Assembly (NCBI GenBank): GCA_023251155.1 | Contig: JAHEZH010000002.1 | Span: 1-64,000, forward strand | Length of the DNA stretch: 64,000 nt | Reading direction: 5' to 3' | Origin: Flammeovirgaceae bacterium | GTDB lineage: Bacteria; Bacteroidota; Bacteroidia; Cytophagales; Cyclobacteriaceae | In this document: positions 5,506-34,962 of the stretch, piece by piece | Position numbering within the stretch: position 1 is the stretch's first letter | Layout: every line of letters begins with the position of its first letter | Notes under the pieces: generated by a model | The model's input: the letters and a program-made list of their open reading frames with translations, nothing else | Database searches by the model: none | Told to the model about the DNA's origin: nothing | Program-made: the position numbers and the translations under genes

Positions 5506-5871
5506 ATGAGTTACACTATTTCGCTTTTCAGGAAGGAAGTAAAAGAACAGAATCAGGGGTTTGATTTTCTGGAATATCAATCGAAGATTCCGGATTTCAC
5601 GGCAGAGCAATTTCAAAAACTGAAGCGGCGCCTGCTCACTTATAAATTTGAGATCGAGACAGAAACAAACGACTACATCGTATTCAATTTCAAAGGTGGT
5701 CAATTCGGAATACAGGTAACCCTTTTCAGCAACCAGCTTTCATTTAGCTCTGGCTTCAATGAAGATGGCATTTTTGAAATCGCGCAGACCGCCTCTGAGT
5801 TTACGGACAGCGGAGAGTTTGCCAAGCTGGACATGCAGGAAGGAAAATGGGAAACGTGGGGAGATGTATAA
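5506..5871 (+). CDS. Conserved hypothetical protein (121 aa)
   Basis: A soluble 121-residue protein with no signal peptide or membrane helix. It begins 13 nt after glmM and ends 12 nt before the cysteine desulfurase, so it is probably in one operon with them. The sequence alternates a helical N-terminal half (DFLEYQSKIPDFTAEQFQKL) with a beta-rich C-terminal half (YIVFNFKGGQFGIQVTLF). No catalytic motif is recognised. It is probably a genuine gene because of its tight packing between two housekeeping genes. Confidence 0.65.
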   Translation: MSYTISLFRKEVKEQNQGFDFLEYQSKIPDFTAEQFQKLKRRLLTYKFEIETETNDYIVFNFKGGQFGIQVTLFSNQLSFSSGFNEDGIFEIAQTASEFTDSGEFAKLDMQEGKWETWGDV

Positions 5872-29233: not shown

Positions 29234-30091
29234 TCAAACCCAGGCCATACTCAAAATACCCAGCAGCATAATGACCTTACACAAGGCGCTGAGGTTGTAA
29301 AAATCATTTTTAGTGTCTGCGCGGATCAGGTAAACCAGGAGCACCAGCAAAGGCGCAAAAAGACATAAAATGAAATAGTAAATGGGCAGCGCTTTAAAGA
29401 AGAAATGTATGGCCACTACGACCAACAAAAACAAAGCAAGCAGGGTATACAGGATGTACTTTGTCTGGCGTATTCCAAAAAGAATGGGGAGTGTTTTGCA
29501 TCCATAGGTATTGTCACCCTTCAGATCTTCCATGTCTTTAATGATCTCGCGTACCAATGTGATGAAAAAAGCAAAAGTAGCATATACATTAATCAGCAAC
29601 AGATGCGAATGATACAGCCAGTTGATTAGTGCGATGGACAATCCCGTAAGGAAAGCCACCGTCATGTTTCCTACAAAAGGCTGACGCTTCAGATTATTGG
29701 AATACAACCATAAAAGAAACCCGGAAGAGAAATTGATCAATCCAATTTGCCAGCCTACTAAAAAGCCAAGGAAAACTCCGGTAACGGAGAGAAAAGTATG
29801 TAGTAAGATAGCATATCTGCGCCCAATGCTTTTACCTACCACCACCCGCTCGGGTTTGTTGATGAGATCGATCTTTACATCATAATAATCATTGATGATA
29901 TAACCGCCTGCCGCGATGGCCATCGTAGATAGGGAAAGAACAAACAACCTCCAGTCTGTAAATGTGGAAGCACCAATCATAAAGAACGCAGTGAAGTACT
30001 GCGCCAGTCCGATAATCAGCAAATTCCAGAAACGCGTGAGCCGCAGGAACGCGTGAAAAGTAAAAGAAGGGCGGGCTGGTTTCTTAGCCAT
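29234..30091 (-). CDS. UbiA-family prenyltransferase
   Basis: A 285-residue polytopic enzyme with about eight to nine helices and the two prenyl-diphosphate motifs NDYYDVKID and DMEDLKGD. Members of this Bacteroidota clade are usually annotated as geranylgeranylglycerol-phosphate geranylgeranyltransferase; other UbiA acceptors (quinones, haem) cannot be excluded. In the same direction as purN just downstream and the TonB receptor upstream (107-bp gap). Confidence 0.85.
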   Translation of the reverse strand: MAKKPARPSFTFHAFLRLTRFWNLLIIGLAQYFTAFFMIGASTFTDWRLFVLSLSTMAIAAGGYIINDYYDVKIDLINKPERVVVGKSIGRRYAILLHTFLSVTGVFLGFLVGWQIGLINFSSGFLLWLYSNNLKRQPFVGNMTVAFLTGLSIALINWLYHSHLLLINVYATFAFFITLVREIIKDMEDLKGDNTYGCKTLPILFGIRQTKYILYTLLALFLLVVVAIHFFFKALPIYYFILCLFAPLLVLLVYLIRADTKNDFYNLSALCKVIMLLGILSMAWV

Positions 30092-30198: not shown

Positions 30199-32559
30199 TC
30201 AGAACTTCAGCGTCATCATCGCCAGGAAATTTCTGCCCGCCTGCGGATAATAATACGCCACTCCGTCTCCATAAGTAGCCCCGTTCGATGAGTACTTCAC
30301 GTCAAACACATTATTCACCAGCACACTGAAATCAATACCCTTCATTCCTTTTGGCGTAAGCGAATAGTTGAATCTCAAATCATTGATGAAATAATCTTCC
30401 AATGTGAGTGACTCTGTCTGTGTATTATCCAGATACTGCTTGCCAACATACTTGCTCAGCAGGTTAGCCTGAAAATGGCGGAACACATTATAGCTTAGCT
30501 GACTTCCCGCTATCCAGCCGGGGGAAAGAATAATGGCTGTGTTTTTCGTTTCGGTCAGATTGGCTTCATTTACTACAAAATCTTTGTTCTTGTTCACACT
30601 TCGTGTCACATTCACATTCCACATTAACCGATCGGTTATGCGTATCGCTCCTGACAGTTCAACACCCGTACGATAGCTCTTCCCCACGTTGGCACGGATA
30701 GGATTACCCACATTATCCAGCTTACCAGTCAATACTAACTGATCGGTATAATTCATCAGGTAATAATTAGCCTCAAAACTATAGCGTTCCGAATTCCTTC
30801 TCCACCCCGCTTCCAGGTTGCCTAATCGTTCCGGCCTGGGTTTCACCGCTCCATTCGTATAATCTGTACGATTCGGTTCGCGATTGGACACGGCATACGA
30901 ACTATACAAAATATCTTTCGGTGAGAGGGTGTAACTCAATCCCGCTTTCGGATTAAAGAAATTAAACTGGTCGTTGAAATCGTACGGAGTCAGATCGTCA
31001 TCAGTACCGGCTGTTTTGTAATCTACATTACGGTATTGCAAATCAACAAAGGCATTGAGTGCGGTAGTGATTTCATAATTCCATTTGGCGTAAATATTAA
31101 AGTCATTTTTTTGCGATTCTCCATCATAATAATGCTGACGTATCTGAGAATTCGCAGAATATTGTGCCCATATAATTTCACCATAGTGCTTCGCTCTTGC
31201 ATATTGGTTGTAGGCCCCACCGATGGAAAGATTGGTTTTGTTCTTTTCATAGTTGAATGAAAAAGTGCCGCCATAGAATTGATTATCCAGCCACTTGCGC
31301 ACAATAAAATCTCCGGAGGTAAGCGTGGTGTCCTTCAATACGATATCATTCAGCCCCAACTCGGCAAAAGGCTTGTTTTGCTTATACTGCTCATAGTAAC
31401 CACGGCCATAGGTATAGTGCAGTGAAACGTTGGCATTCCAGTACGTATTCAGTTTTTGAGTTACATGCAATTGATAATGATCCTGACGGTAATGATCAAT
31501 TTCGTTATTGTAATACCCGGTCACATTCCAGTTTTCATCATACAATGCACCGGCCGAATTAAACGTGCGATTCGTCTTCATTGTAGCGGCATCGTTACCA
31601 TTCCACGATTGATACGTTTCTTCCTGCCCGCCAAACATAATGGCTTTCATAATGGTCTTCTTACCATAATAACCACCACTGAGGTAATACGAATGAAGAT
31701 CAGAAGAAGCCCGATCGATATATCCATCAGAAGTAATTTGGGATACACGCCCGTCAAATGACCACTTGCCATTGATCAATCCTGTTCCTGCTTTCAATGT
31801 ATAGCGCTGGGTATTGAACGATCCCCCTCCCACCATGATGTCGGCATACGGATCGGCTTGCTGCGAGATGGTTTGCACATTCACACTTCCGCCAAATGCA
31901 CCCGCGCCATTAGTCGATGTACCTACGCCACGTTGTATCTGCACACTTTGTGTGGATGAACTGATGTCAGGAATGTTTACCCAGAACGTACCTTGCGATT
32001 CACTATCGTTGTAGGAAATACCGTTGATGGTCACGTTGATCCGCGTAGCATCGCTTCCGCGAATGCGTAATCCGGTATAACCAATACCAGCACCCGCATC
32101 GGACGTTGTGACCAACGAGGGGGTCCAGTTTAAAAGGTAGGGCATGTCCTGACCAAAGCCTTGTTTGCTCAGTGCCTGCCCGCTCACATTGGTAAACGTG
32201 GTGGGTGTTTTATCATTCGCTCGTGTAGCATACACGACCACTTCATCCGTCAGTTGTGCGGATTCATTCATCGCGATAGCCATGTTGACATTCTGTGAAA
32301 GTGAAACGTTTTCCACTTTCTCTTCAAAGCCTACAAACCGGATCAGGAGCGAATACTCACCCGCTGGTAATTTTTCAATCCGGAATCTTCCAAACTCATC
32401 GGTTACCGCAAAACGATTTTGATTTTCTACCTGAACCGATGCACCGGCCAGTACCTGGTTGCTTTTTCCATTCTTCACCGTACCGGCAATGGAAAAATGT
32501 TGTGCAATAGCATGCGTGGATAACAGCACTACCACTGCAACGATCATTGATTTGAACAT
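30199..32559 (-). CDS. TonB-dependent outer-membrane receptor, thiamine-regulated
   Basis: A 786-residue receptor: signal peptide (1-19, ...THAIAQ), a carboxypeptidase-regulatory-like beta sandwich (about 22-105, IAGTVKNGKSNQVLAGASV), a plug domain (about 120-230, GLRIRGSDATRINVTINGI) and a 22-strand barrel ending in phenylalanine (AMMTLKF). Its mRNA leader carries a TPP riboswitch, so the likely ligand is thiamine or a phosphate ester/precursor. Bacteroidota are known to have TPP-riboswitch-controlled outer-membrane receptors. No inner-membrane PnuT-like transporter is adjacent in this window. Confidence 0.93.
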   Translation of the reverse strand: MFKSMIVAVVVLLSTHAIAQHFSIAGTVKNGKSNQVLAGASVQVENQNRFAVTDEFGRFRIEKLPAGEYSLLIRFVGFEEKVENVSLSQNVNMAIAMNESAQLTDEVVVYATRANDKTPTTFTNVSGQALSKQGFGQDMPYLLNWTPSLVTTSDAGAGIGYTGLRIRGSDATRINVTINGISYNDSESQGTFWVNIPDISSSTQSVQIQRGVGTSTNGAGAFGGSVNVQTISQQADPYADIMVGGGSFNTQRYTLKAGTGLINGKWSFDGRVSQITSDGYIDRASSDLHSYYLSGGYYGKKTIMKAIMFGGQEETYQSWNGNDAATMKTNRTFNSAGALYDENWNVTGYYNNEIDHYRQDHYQLHVTQKLNTYWNANVSLHYTYGRGYYEQYKQNKPFAELGLNDIVLKDTTLTSGDFIVRKWLDNQFYGGTFSFNYEKNKTNLSIGGAYNQYARAKHYGEIIWAQYSANSQIRQHYYDGESQKNDFNIYAKWNYEITTALNAFVDLQYRNVDYKTAGTDDDLTPYDFNDQFNFFNPKAGLSYTLSPKDILYSSYAVSNREPNRTDYTNGAVKPRPERLGNLEAGWRRNSERYSFEANYYLMNYTDQLVLTGKLDNVGNPIRANVGKSYRTGVELSGAIRITDRLMWNVNVTRSVNKNKDFVVNEANLTETKNTAIILSPGWIAGSQLSYNVFRHFQANLLSKYVGKQYLDNTQTESLTLEDYFINDLRFNYSLTPKGMKGIDFSVLVNNVFDVKYSSNGATYGDGVAYYYPQAGRNFLAMMTLKF

Positions 32560-32609
32560 TGTGTATTAAAAAATTTAAACCCGCAGGCACATCGGGGAAT
32601 GTACCTTAC

Positions 32610-32712
32610 TTACGTGTTTATTCTGCCTCCCTTCGTCCGCATTACCGGCATCAGGTTCTATGGGTATAATCTCAGCCCTTGTTTTTTAGGCACCCCTTGC
32701 TCTGAAATGAAT
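32610..32712 (-). ncRNA. TPP riboswitch (THI-box)
   Basis: On the minus strand the conserved blocks appear in order: GGGGTGCC (complement of 32689-32696), GGCTGAGATTATACCC (about 32662-32677), GAACCTGAT (32650-32658), and the distal CGGTAATGCGGACGAAGGGA (about 32627-32646). These are the hallmark TPP-binding helices. It lies in the leader of the TonB receptor and ends ~50 nt before its ATG. Between them a short CCCG/CGGG stem followed by T-rich sequence, and an AGGCA/TGCCT pairing with the 3' end of the aptamer, are possible expression-platform elements. High TPP should repress the receptor. Confidence 0.95.
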
Positions 32713-32722
32713 CAGAACGGTG

Positions 32723-32730
32723 CAAATGTA
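32723..32730 (-). promoter_or_regulatory. Promoter -7 box (TACATTTG) for the riboswitch leader
   Basis: Exact TAnnTTTG on the minus strand, predicted transcript start near 32719, i.e. just 5' of the TPP aptamer. This gives a leader of ~160 nt before ATG 32559. Confidence 0.6.
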
Positions 32731-32750
32731 GACAAGAATTCTGAATTTGA

Positions 32751-32775
32751 AATTTTGAATTCCGAATTCAAAATT
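32751..32775. repeat. Perfect 12-bp palindrome (AATTTTGAATTC type)
   Basis: AATTTTGAATTC and its exact reverse complement flank a single C. It lies between the divergent TonB receptor promoter and the S9 peptidase gene and shares the TTTTGAATT word with the repeat at 23587-23613. Confidence 0.6.
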
Positions 32776-32811
32776 CTTCCCATAGATTCGGCTCGCAAAA
32801 CTCAATACCCG

Positions 32812-34962
32812 ATGAACAAAATTTCGATTGTTATTGTAATCGCTGGCGTCTCATTGATCATGAGTTGCTCCAAACCTAAAAAAGAGGAAATGGCTTCTGT
32901 AAAACCGTACCCCGTTACCAAAAAAGACAATACCGTTGATACCCTATTTGGCACACCCGTAGCGGATCCCTACCGTTGGTTAGAAAATGACACTTCAAAA
33001 GAAACGGCCGAATGGGTCAACGCACAAAACGATGTCACCTTTGATTACCTCAACCACATTCCCTTCCGCGACAGCGTGAGAAAAAGACTGGGCGAAGTAT
33101 TTAATTACGAACGGCTGAGCGCTCCTTTCAAAGAAGGCGACTTCTATTACTTCTACAAAAACGATGGCTTGCAGAACCACAGCGTACTGTATCGCAAGAA
33201 AGGTGAAAACGGTACGCCAGAAGTATTTCTCGATCCGAATACATTCTCTACAGATGGAACCACCGCATTGGCAGGAACCTTCTTCACCAAAGACGGAAGC
33301 TTGCTTACGTACCTGATCTCTGAAGGTGGTTCTGACTGGAGAAAAGCCATCACTATCAATACCGCTGACAAAACGGTTGTTGAAGATTCATTGCGCGACC
33401 TGAAATTCACCGGCATCAGCTGGAAAGGCAAAGAAGGTTTTTATTACAGCAGTTATGATAAACCCAAAGGCAGTGAGCTATCAGCCCAAACACAATTTCA
33501 CAAAGTATTCTATCATAAGCTGAACACACCACAGAAAAACGATCAGTTTATTTTTGGTGGTGAAAAAACACCGCGCAGGTATATTGGAGCCGGTCTTACT
33601 GAAGACGAACGCTTTCTGGTGATCTCGGCATCCACAAGCACTACCGGCAATGAACTTTATATCCAGGACTTAAAAGATCCGAAAGGCAAACTGGTGACGA
33701 TCGTTGATAACTTTGATAACAACCATAACCTGATTGACAATGATGGCAGTCGTTTGCTCATCCAAACTAACCTGAATGCACCTAACGACCGCATTGTAGA
33801 AGTTGACTTCGCCCACCCTGCTCCGGAAAACTGGAAAGACATTATCCCCGAAACCGACAATGCATTACAAGGCGTGGGCACGGCGAACAAAAAACTTTTC
33901 CTGAATTACCTGAAGGATGCGCAAACCCTGATCAAGCAATACGACTACAAAGGCAAACTGGAAAGAGAAGTCGCATTACCTGGCATCGGCACGGCGGGTG
34001 GATTCAGTGGAAAAATCGATGACAAAGAGATTTACTATTCATTTACTTCCTTCATTTATCCTACTTCCATCTTTAAATATGACATCGCTACAGGCAAATC
34101 TGTTTTGTATGAAAAACCAAAAGTAGATTTCAACCCGGATGATTACGAAACCAAACAGGTATTCTACAAAAGCAAAGACGGCACCCAAGTGCCTATGTTC
34201 ATTGTGCACAAAAAAGGAATTGAACTGAATGGCAAAAATGCAACATGGCTCTATGCCTACGGAGGTTTTGGCGTGAGCCTCACGCCTTCATTCAGTGCAT
34301 CACGCGTCGTGTGGCTCGAAAACGGGGGAATTTACGCTCAACCTAACCTGCGCGGTGGTGGAGAGTATGGAGAGAAGTGGCACATAGCAGGAACCAAGAT
34401 GAACAAACAGAATGTGTTTGATGATTTCATTGCGGCAGGTGAATACCTGATCAGCAACCAATACACCTCACCACAATACCTTGCTGTGGCAGGTGGATCA
34501 AATGGCGGATTGCTCGTAGGTGCTACCATGACTCAGCGTCCTGACCTGATGAAAGTAGCATTGCCCGGTGTAGGTGTATTGGACATGCTCCGCTATCACA
34601 AGTTCACCGCAGGTGCGGGCTGGGCGTATGACTACGGCACCGCCGATGACTCAAAAGAAATGTTTGAGTACCTCAAAAAGTATTCACCCCTTCACGCTTT
34701 GCGCGACAGCGTTGCTTACCCGGCCACTATGGTAACCACAGCCGATCATGATGACCGTGTAGTGCCGGCACACTCGTATAAGTTTGCTTCTACATTACAA
34801 GCGTATAACGCAGGTAACAATCCGGTATTGATTCGTATCGATACCAAATCAGGCCATGGCTCATCGAATTTATCGAAGACATTAGATGCAGCTGCTGATC
34901 AATATGCATTTACGTGGTACAGTATGGGAGTAACTCCAGCGCTGGCGAAGAAGGGAATGTAA
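32812..34962 (+). CDS. Prolyl oligopeptidase (S9 family) lipoprotein
   Basis: A 716-residue serine peptidase that cleaves small peptides after proline. The N-terminus is a lipoprotein signal (lipobox LIMSC, Cys at about residue 20). A seven-bladed propeller domain is followed by the alpha/beta-hydrolase domain with nucleophile GGSNGG, acid in DHDDRVVPAHS and histidine in KSGHGSS. ATG 32812 was chosen because the longer frame from 32599 runs through the opposite-strand riboswitch and would displace the lipoprotein signal. Likely anchored in the envelope facing periplasm or surface. Confidence 0.93.
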   Translation: MNKISIVIVIAGVSLIMSCSKPKKEEMASVKPYPVTKKDNTVDTLFGTPVADPYRWLENDTSKETAEWVNAQNDVTFDYLNHIPFRDSVRKRLGEVFNYERLSAPFKEGDFYYFYKNDGLQNHSVLYRKKGENGTPEVFLDPNTFSTDGTTALAGTFFTKDGSLLTYLISEGGSDWRKAITINTADKTVVEDSLRDLKFTGISWKGKEGFYYSSYDKPKGSELSAQTQFHKVFYHKLNTPQKNDQFIFGGEKTPRRYIGAGLTEDERFLVISASTSTTGNELYIQDLKDPKGKLVTIVDNFDNNHNLIDNDGSRLLIQTNLNAPNDRIVEVDFAHPAPENWKDIIPETDNALQGVGTANKKLFLNYLKDAQTLIKQYDYKGKLEREVALPGIGTAGGFSGKIDDKEIYYSFTSFIYPTSIFKYDIATGKSVLYEKPKVDFNPDDYETKQVFYKSKDGTQVPMFIVHKKGIELNGKNATWLYAYGGFGVSLTPSFSASRVVWLENGGIYAQPNLRGGGEYGEKWHIAGTKMNKQNVFDDFIAAGEYLISNQYTSPQYLAVAGGSNGGLLVGATMTQRPDLMKVALPGVGVLDMLRYHKFTAGAGWAYDYGTADDSKEMFEYLKKYSPLHALRDSVAYPATMVTTADHDDRVVPAHSYKFASTLQAYNAGNNPVLIRIDTKSGHGSSNLSKTLDAAADQYAFTWYSMGVTPALAKKGM

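Follow-up and report, generated by a model that had tools for sequence, protein, structure and literature searches.

A thiamine pyrophosphate riboswitch and a conserved CCCC-loop hairpin precede a TonB-dependent receptor gene in a Flammeovirgaceae genome and may control its translation

The DNA analysed here, referred to as the window, is a stretch of 64,000 nucleotides (nt) from a Flammeovirgaceae bacterium (GCA_023251155.1, JAHEZH010000002.1, positions 1-64,000), part of a 6.44 Mb draft genome of 99.2% completeness whose nearest relatives found are metagenome-assembled genomes named Cytophagales and Cyclobacteriaceae. On the minus strand it carries a gene for a TonB-dependent outer-membrane receptor of 786 amino acids (aa) (30199..32559), in which CarbopepD_reg_2, Plug and barrel (TonB_dep_Rec_b-barrel) domains all score over their Pfam cut-offs. 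Upstream of the start codon, on the same strand, lie a -7 promoter box (32723..32730), a thiamine pyrophosphate (TPP) riboswitch aptamer (32611..32707), a hairpin with an unpaired CCCC apical loop (32576..32620) and an A/T-rich initiation region with no Shine-Dalgarno sequence (32560..32575). The initial annotation of this DNA had placed a TPP riboswitch with its own promoter before the receptor, and all three elements were borne out; folding of the leader, which it had also proposed, gave a long hairpin before the start codon. Neither of the two expression platforms it had suggested was supported. On balance we favour a reading in which the riboswitch represses a receptor of the OMthi/omr type, presumed to take up thiamine or a precursor, most likely at the level of translation and not through the closing helix P1.

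The aptamer is the sole Rfam match at gathering threshold in the window. RF00059 aligns over its full length (model 1-105) to 32707-32611 of the minus strand with 57.8 bits (E 1e-8; gathering score 54.3), where the initial annotation had expected a hit at about 32610-32712. The conserved CUGAGA, GAACCUGAU and AGGGA blocks and helices P2 to P5 are present in the Rfam alignment, with some stem pairs marked as non-standard; in the ligand-bound aptamer, GGG of the GGGG at 32693..32696 (the P2 5' strand) pairs with the CCC at 32662..32664 (the P2 3' strand). The score only just exceeds the cut-off, the optional P3a is missing and P1 is nearly absent: the alignment has mismatches in the closing helix, and the longest helix near the junction measures 2 base pairs (bp) in the window's own leader (L051 in our numbering of loci). 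Such a helix is likewise no longer than 2 bp in 49 of 92 leaders of the same family, a set that excludes L004 and L006, which are near copies of the window or of L005, and L016, for which no upstream DNA is available. We treat P1 as a variable feature whose absence does not exclude membership of the TPP riboswitch class, and its loss may be the reason that many Bacteroidota TPP riboswitches have scores close to the Rfam cut-off or below it. The closest relative, L004, whose receptor is 92% identical, reaches 53.7 bits, under the gathering score, as does one copy each in L087, L092 and L113.

The promoter box, TACATTTG, fits the Bacteroidota -7 consensus TAnnTTTG (PMC7366714). In 63 of the 92 family leaders the same box occurs no more than 70 nt ahead of the aptamer GGGG, against 4.1 expected from shuffles; by eye, no clear -33 element is present in the window. 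From the end of the box to GGGG the distance is a median of 14 nt in family leaders with the box and 26 nt in the window, so that the transcript would have little room for a P1 strand. At the place of the P1 5' strand, minimum-energy folds put a small 5' hairpin (32699..32718), after the presumed start of transcription and ahead of the aptamer; the sequence of this hairpin differs from that of close relatives. Directly upstream of the box, L005, L006 and L007 have a C/G-rich palindromic element (CCCTCACCC...GGGTGAGGG, ~5765-5840) that is not in the window, and the window itself has A/T-rich overlapping inverted repeats (TTTTGAATTCGGAATTCAAAA and a further AATTC repeat) at 32736-32774, between the divergent genes and just upstream of the box.

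The combination of riboswitch and receptor is widespread. Receptor relatives were gathered by protein similarity, regardless of riboswitches, and a CTGAGA box, a pattern looser than the Rfam model, occurs upstream of the receptor start in 106 of 107 related loci, the exception being L016, which is cut by its contig. At gathering threshold, Rfam accepts 26 of 36 family receptor loci (12/20 and 14/16). Beyond the family, 60 loci of the same class were examined: an aptamer-like pattern is present in 52 and lacking in eight. Rfam was run on 19 of these class loci; eight pass the gathering score, ten others give lower-scoring matches with E no higher than 4e-4, and L207 has no match. The linkage across family and class loci indicates that the connection between TPP and the receptor is old and general, as omr (PMC2211319) and OMthi (PMC5613172) would lead one to expect.

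Between aptamer and start codon, folding and covariation in nine relatives define a hairpin composed of an outer stem (32620-32612 with 32584-32576) and an inner stem (32606-32599 with 32592-32585), the unpaired CCCC loop (32594..32597) being complementary to the GGGG of the aptamer. In the alignment of these relatives the hairpin is free of gaps; 97.2% of its cells are paired compared with 88.4% in shuffles, and 13 cells show changes on both sides compared with 4.6, while slid-hairpin controls reach at most 49.3% paired and four both-sided changes. An RNAalifold model (R1) computed on a MAFFT alignment missed the outer stem and was not used further.

The loop is conserved across the family. 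CCCC is the most enriched 4-mer in family platforms, present in 82 of 92 leaders against 28.5 expected, and GGGGT is found in every one of these 82. The median distance from the first base of CCCC to the start codon is 42 nt, even though platform lengths vary widely. Folds around CCCC have a median z of -2.98, and 67 of the 82 are matched by at most 5 of 100 shuffles. By one fixed rule, a CCCC-loop hairpin is found in 70 of the 92 receptor leaders and in 0 of 199 other long open reading frames (ORFs) of the same loci (at least 180 aa, both strands, taken as ORFs and not checked as genes). The stretch from hairpin to start codon has a median length of 14 nt (79 leaders) and is A-rich and G-poor, with G at 1-16% at positions -19 to -1 (91 leaders).

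The sequence of the loop copies the strand that already pairs with GGG of GGGGU as P2 in the Rfam structure, and platforms of related leaders likewise resemble that strand. In the same family, thiM-type TPP leaders carry long complements of the aptamer 5' strand, e.g. AAACUUUAGGGG and CUCCUAAAGUUU, and their own platforms fit better than swapped ones (-15.3 against -13.9, p<0.0002; n=15, those of the 30 loci L001 and L022-L050 in which the script found a start). Such complements were noted in the platforms of L024, L026, L032, L036, L043 and L044; in L026 the CUCC in question also faces a GGAG immediately ahead of the start codon. Outside the family, the platform of receptor leaders covaries with the 5' strand: native combinations fit better than swapped ones (z -6.2, n=48), and in the same test the two strands of P1 fit more weakly (z -3.1). 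The aptamer 3' strand does not fit the platform in the class (z +0.3) or the family (z +0.6), and a platform that pairs with it was rejected. These tests exclude leaders whose platform is short and omit near-duplicates; the run with controls used 51 class leaders out of 57 and 57 family leaders out of 91, and the run that contrasts the 3' strand used 48 and 57; the class set includes up to eight of the loci L008, L009, L010, L012, L013, L014, L015 and L017. A repeat on 22 Rfam-confirmed class leaders gave z -7.0 (z -6.2 for the 19 that remain without near copies), a figure that is not independent, as these loci were chosen with platforms in view, and the test with n=48 is the one to use. By eye, in several class leaders (L171, L180 and L182) the anti-strand shares sequence with the 5' arm of a hairpin whose stem ends immediately ahead of the start codon.

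These observations, together with the short or missing P1, suggest a switch in which one strand of the aptamer has two partners. The transcript would start shortly before the aptamer, which would leave P1 weak. GGGG would then pair either with the CCC of its own P2, in a pairing that TPP stabilises, or with the CCCC loop of the hairpin. When TPP is absent, GGGG would be held by the loop, leaving the mRNA open to translation. Binding of TPP would return GGGG to the aptamer, and the hairpin, once released, would stand in the way of the 30S subunit at initiation, where the mRNA offers no Shine-Dalgarno sequence. Control at translation is suggested by the lack of a conserved terminator, by the transcript of OMthi in Bacteroides thetaiotaomicron, which does not change significantly with thiamine (PMC5613172), and by general surveys, in which translation attenuation is predicted as the commonest mode outside Firmicutes (PMC2258182) and, in RNA-seq data that take in Bacteroides, 6 of 57 TPP riboswitches are transcriptionally active and all six belong to other genera (PMC12121620). 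The level at which Bacteroidetes TPP riboswitches act was called uncertain in 2017 (PMC5613172).

Several results weigh against this model. Of five covariation measures for the hairpin, two are not above shuffles, namely pairs changed on both sides (4 against 2.8; 63/500) and further pair types (11 against 10.0; 148/500), and CCCC is absent from 10 of the 92 family leaders. In the swap tests, controls near zero (reverse complement -0.1, J3/2 -0.8) stand beside others that are also negative (reversed strand -1.9, promoter DNA -3.0, P3 -2.5), so part of the signal is shared composition, and in the class loci an open-frame rule was used to place the start codons. For the family of the window, covariation between 5' strand and platform beyond the invariant core has a z of about 0 (n=57), the core being invariant and thus unable to reveal covariation. 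The putative pairing of GGGG with CCCC in the window comprises only 4 bp and has no extension (CCCCG facing AGGGG). Pairing at the next position is possible in 64 of 82 family leaders against 70% when permuted (p 0.004, uncorrected for kinship), and mean extension in the family is not significant (p 0.15), for which reason we do not build on it. Nested ensemble folding, in which pseudoknots lie outside the model, gives the start region an accessibility of 0.52 with and 0.53 without forced P2 and P4; it could score 45 of the 92 leaders (those that match the pattern needed for the constraint), of which two lose more than 0.1 in accessibility when P2 and P4 are forced, and nine comparison leaders of the L001 and L022-L050 set, mostly thiM-type, are likewise unchanged. 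Switching by nested secondary structure alone was therefore rejected, and the model must assume a pseudoknot, a kissing contact or a kinetic effect. Finally, the TenA-type salvage pathway of this genome, described below, leaves the carried compound ambiguous.

Two other explanations of the leader would account for the hairpin without a loop that competes for the aptamer. The initial annotation offered a CCCG/CGGG stem before a T-rich run, or an AGGCA/TGCCT pairing with the 3' end of the aptamer. In a scheme of intrinsic transcription termination, the hairpin before the T-run would be the terminator and pairings on the P1 side the antiterminator. Six Ts do follow the hairpin in the window, L004 and L059, whereas L005, L007, L062 and L074 all keep the hairpin with a longest T-run of 4 or fewer, and only 12 of 92 leaders have a run of at least 5 Ts within the 25 nt that precede the start. 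A terminator scan of 32400-33000 returned no site on the receptor strand, and the Cs of the supposed stem are the unpaired loop of the covarying hairpin; with the T-run not conserved, the CCCG/CGGG terminator was rejected. The TGCCT of the second proposal is the 3' arm of the same hairpin and is kept in only three of nine close relatives, and this pairing was rejected as not conserved. Together with the missing covariation between aptamer 3' strand and platform, these results make termination improbable.

A second explanation, which we regard as unlikely although less so, is that the CCCC hairpin is a site for a protein, a small RNA, Rho or an RNase and does not pair with the aptamer, TPP acting through some other contact. 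This would suit a loop that is conserved while the aptamer 5' flank in the window's family does not covary with it, and the window's leader keeps the hairpin in both modelled states. A separate recognition site fits poorly, however, with platforms of other families and of thiM-type leaders in the same family that are complementary to the aptamer 5' strand and covary with it, and with the complete absence of such hairpins from the 199 control ORFs. Competition between the loop and P2 for GGGG accordingly remains the reading that we prefer, at a strength somewhat better than even.

Thiamine or a precursor, as put forward in the initial annotation, is a well-supported and likely substrate class for the receptor, given the CTGAGA box in nearly all related loci and the aptamer-like pattern in most class loci. 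The gene content of the genome is in keeping with this. A search with the riboswitch family found two TPP riboswitches, the other one (78 bits) lying before thiM-thiE-thiD-tenA (NCBIfam names). No match in the genome was obtained for ThiC or for a kinase of PF04263, and ThiG gave only short partial matches; ThiL is present. A single PnuC-like gene was found, followed by an ORF read as NadR-like, which makes the PnuC-like protein more likely to serve nicotinamide riboside. The cell thus probably lives by salvage, to which receptor-mediated uptake of thiamine or of its parts would be well suited.

The genome also encodes a diverged, kinase-like protein of 185 aa that starts MSSHH. Genes of its family are found close to the receptor gene in at least 18 of 107 loci (these hold different lengths of downstream DNA), again in line with a substrate related to thiamine. 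The relatives scanned have no Pfam or NCBIfam match over cut-off, and the best PDB match of the family profile is weak (2omk, E 0.029). We take 2omk to be a thiamine pyrophosphokinase, which suggests that the MSSHH family (about 200 aa; e.g. L143:1495-2052) may be a diverged thiamine pyrophosphokinase missed by profile libraries.

This candidate kinase bears on whether the receptor carries a precursor, such as hydroxymethylpyrimidine (HMP), aminopyrimidine or thiazole, rather than thiamine itself. With no ThiC match, only partial ThiG-like matches and no PF04263 kinase, yet with ThiM, ThiE, ThiD, TenA and ThiL present, the cell could use precursors or the products of TenA. The kinase-like MSSHH gene in the genome, recurrently placed near the receptor, argues against a precursor, and in B. 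thetaiotaomicron the growth behaviour of mutants supports thiamine as the substrate of OMthi (PMC5613172). We consider transport of a precursor in place of thiamine rather unlikely, though with a real chance of being right.

A gene for a DUF6687 protein (PF20392) was found by tblastn near the riboswitch-receptor gene in 12 loci (L060, L066, L068, L085, L092, L098, L103, L113, L120, L125, L127 and L139), the Pfam match being tested in L060, L066 and L120; in several of them it lies directly downstream of the receptor and is followed by the MSSHH gene. It is a candidate for an unknown step of thiamine salvage; our literature search found no mention of DUF6687, and PDB searches with it and with the receptor returned no match.

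Around the receptor in the window, a prolyl oligopeptidase gene (32812-34962) lies beside it in the opposite direction, and UbiA and formyltransferase genes lie downstream. The initial annotation had noted that no inner-membrane transporter adjoins the receptor, and indeed there is none among the eight neighbouring proteins scanned. The UbiA prenyltransferase gene (29234-30091), of which only the window copy was domain-scanned, comes next after the receptor here; inspection of N-termini by eye suggests the same order in about two dozen of 105 loci.

The platform hairpin suggests how such switches may work in a phylum that has no classical Shine-Dalgarno sequences (PMC7366714), to which the usual anti-Shine-Dalgarno model therefore does not fit. 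More broadly, and as a tentative proposal that we hold at somewhat less than even confidence, receptor TPP riboswitches of Bacteroidota may form a variety independent of P1, in which the platform mimics the P2 3' strand (CCCC or CUCC), in Cytophagales shown as a conserved hairpin loop, and competes for the 5' strand as a loop-strand pseudoknot that would set translation at starts of the non-Shine-Dalgarno kind. The platform, which is conserved, covaries and has a loop that hardly changes, offers a concrete target for mutation.

The new part of this account is the platform; the arrangement of riboswitch and receptor is already known. In B. thetaiotaomicron, OMthi (BT2390) is a TonB-dependent receptor likewise preceded by a TPP riboswitch (PMC5613172, PMC7366714), and in omr a THI element likewise controls a gene for a BtuB-like outer-membrane receptor (PMC2211319). 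Unlike OMthi, the window receptor has no adjacent pnuT-tnr3 and its genome has no ThiC match; the likeness described here is one of arrangement. The accessible description of omr includes no expression platform. A whole-riboswitch TPP covariation motif (PMC13273304) resembles our model in treating aptamer and expression platform together and differs in being seeded from 48 terminator-type sequences with two nucleotides common to aptamer and platform; its main text contains no word beginning bacteroid-. Our literature search, which had most subscription-journal papers outside its reach, found no description of a platform like the one proposed here. A 2019 preprint by Costliow, Degnan and Vanderpool reportedly treats TPP riboswitches of Bacteroides species and may already describe such platforms. 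The closest mechanical parallel may be the kissing loop of cobalamin riboswitches, a different ligand class, in which the loop of a platform hairpin likewise contacts the aptamer. There the contact forms with the ligand, whereas here it is proposed to form without it.

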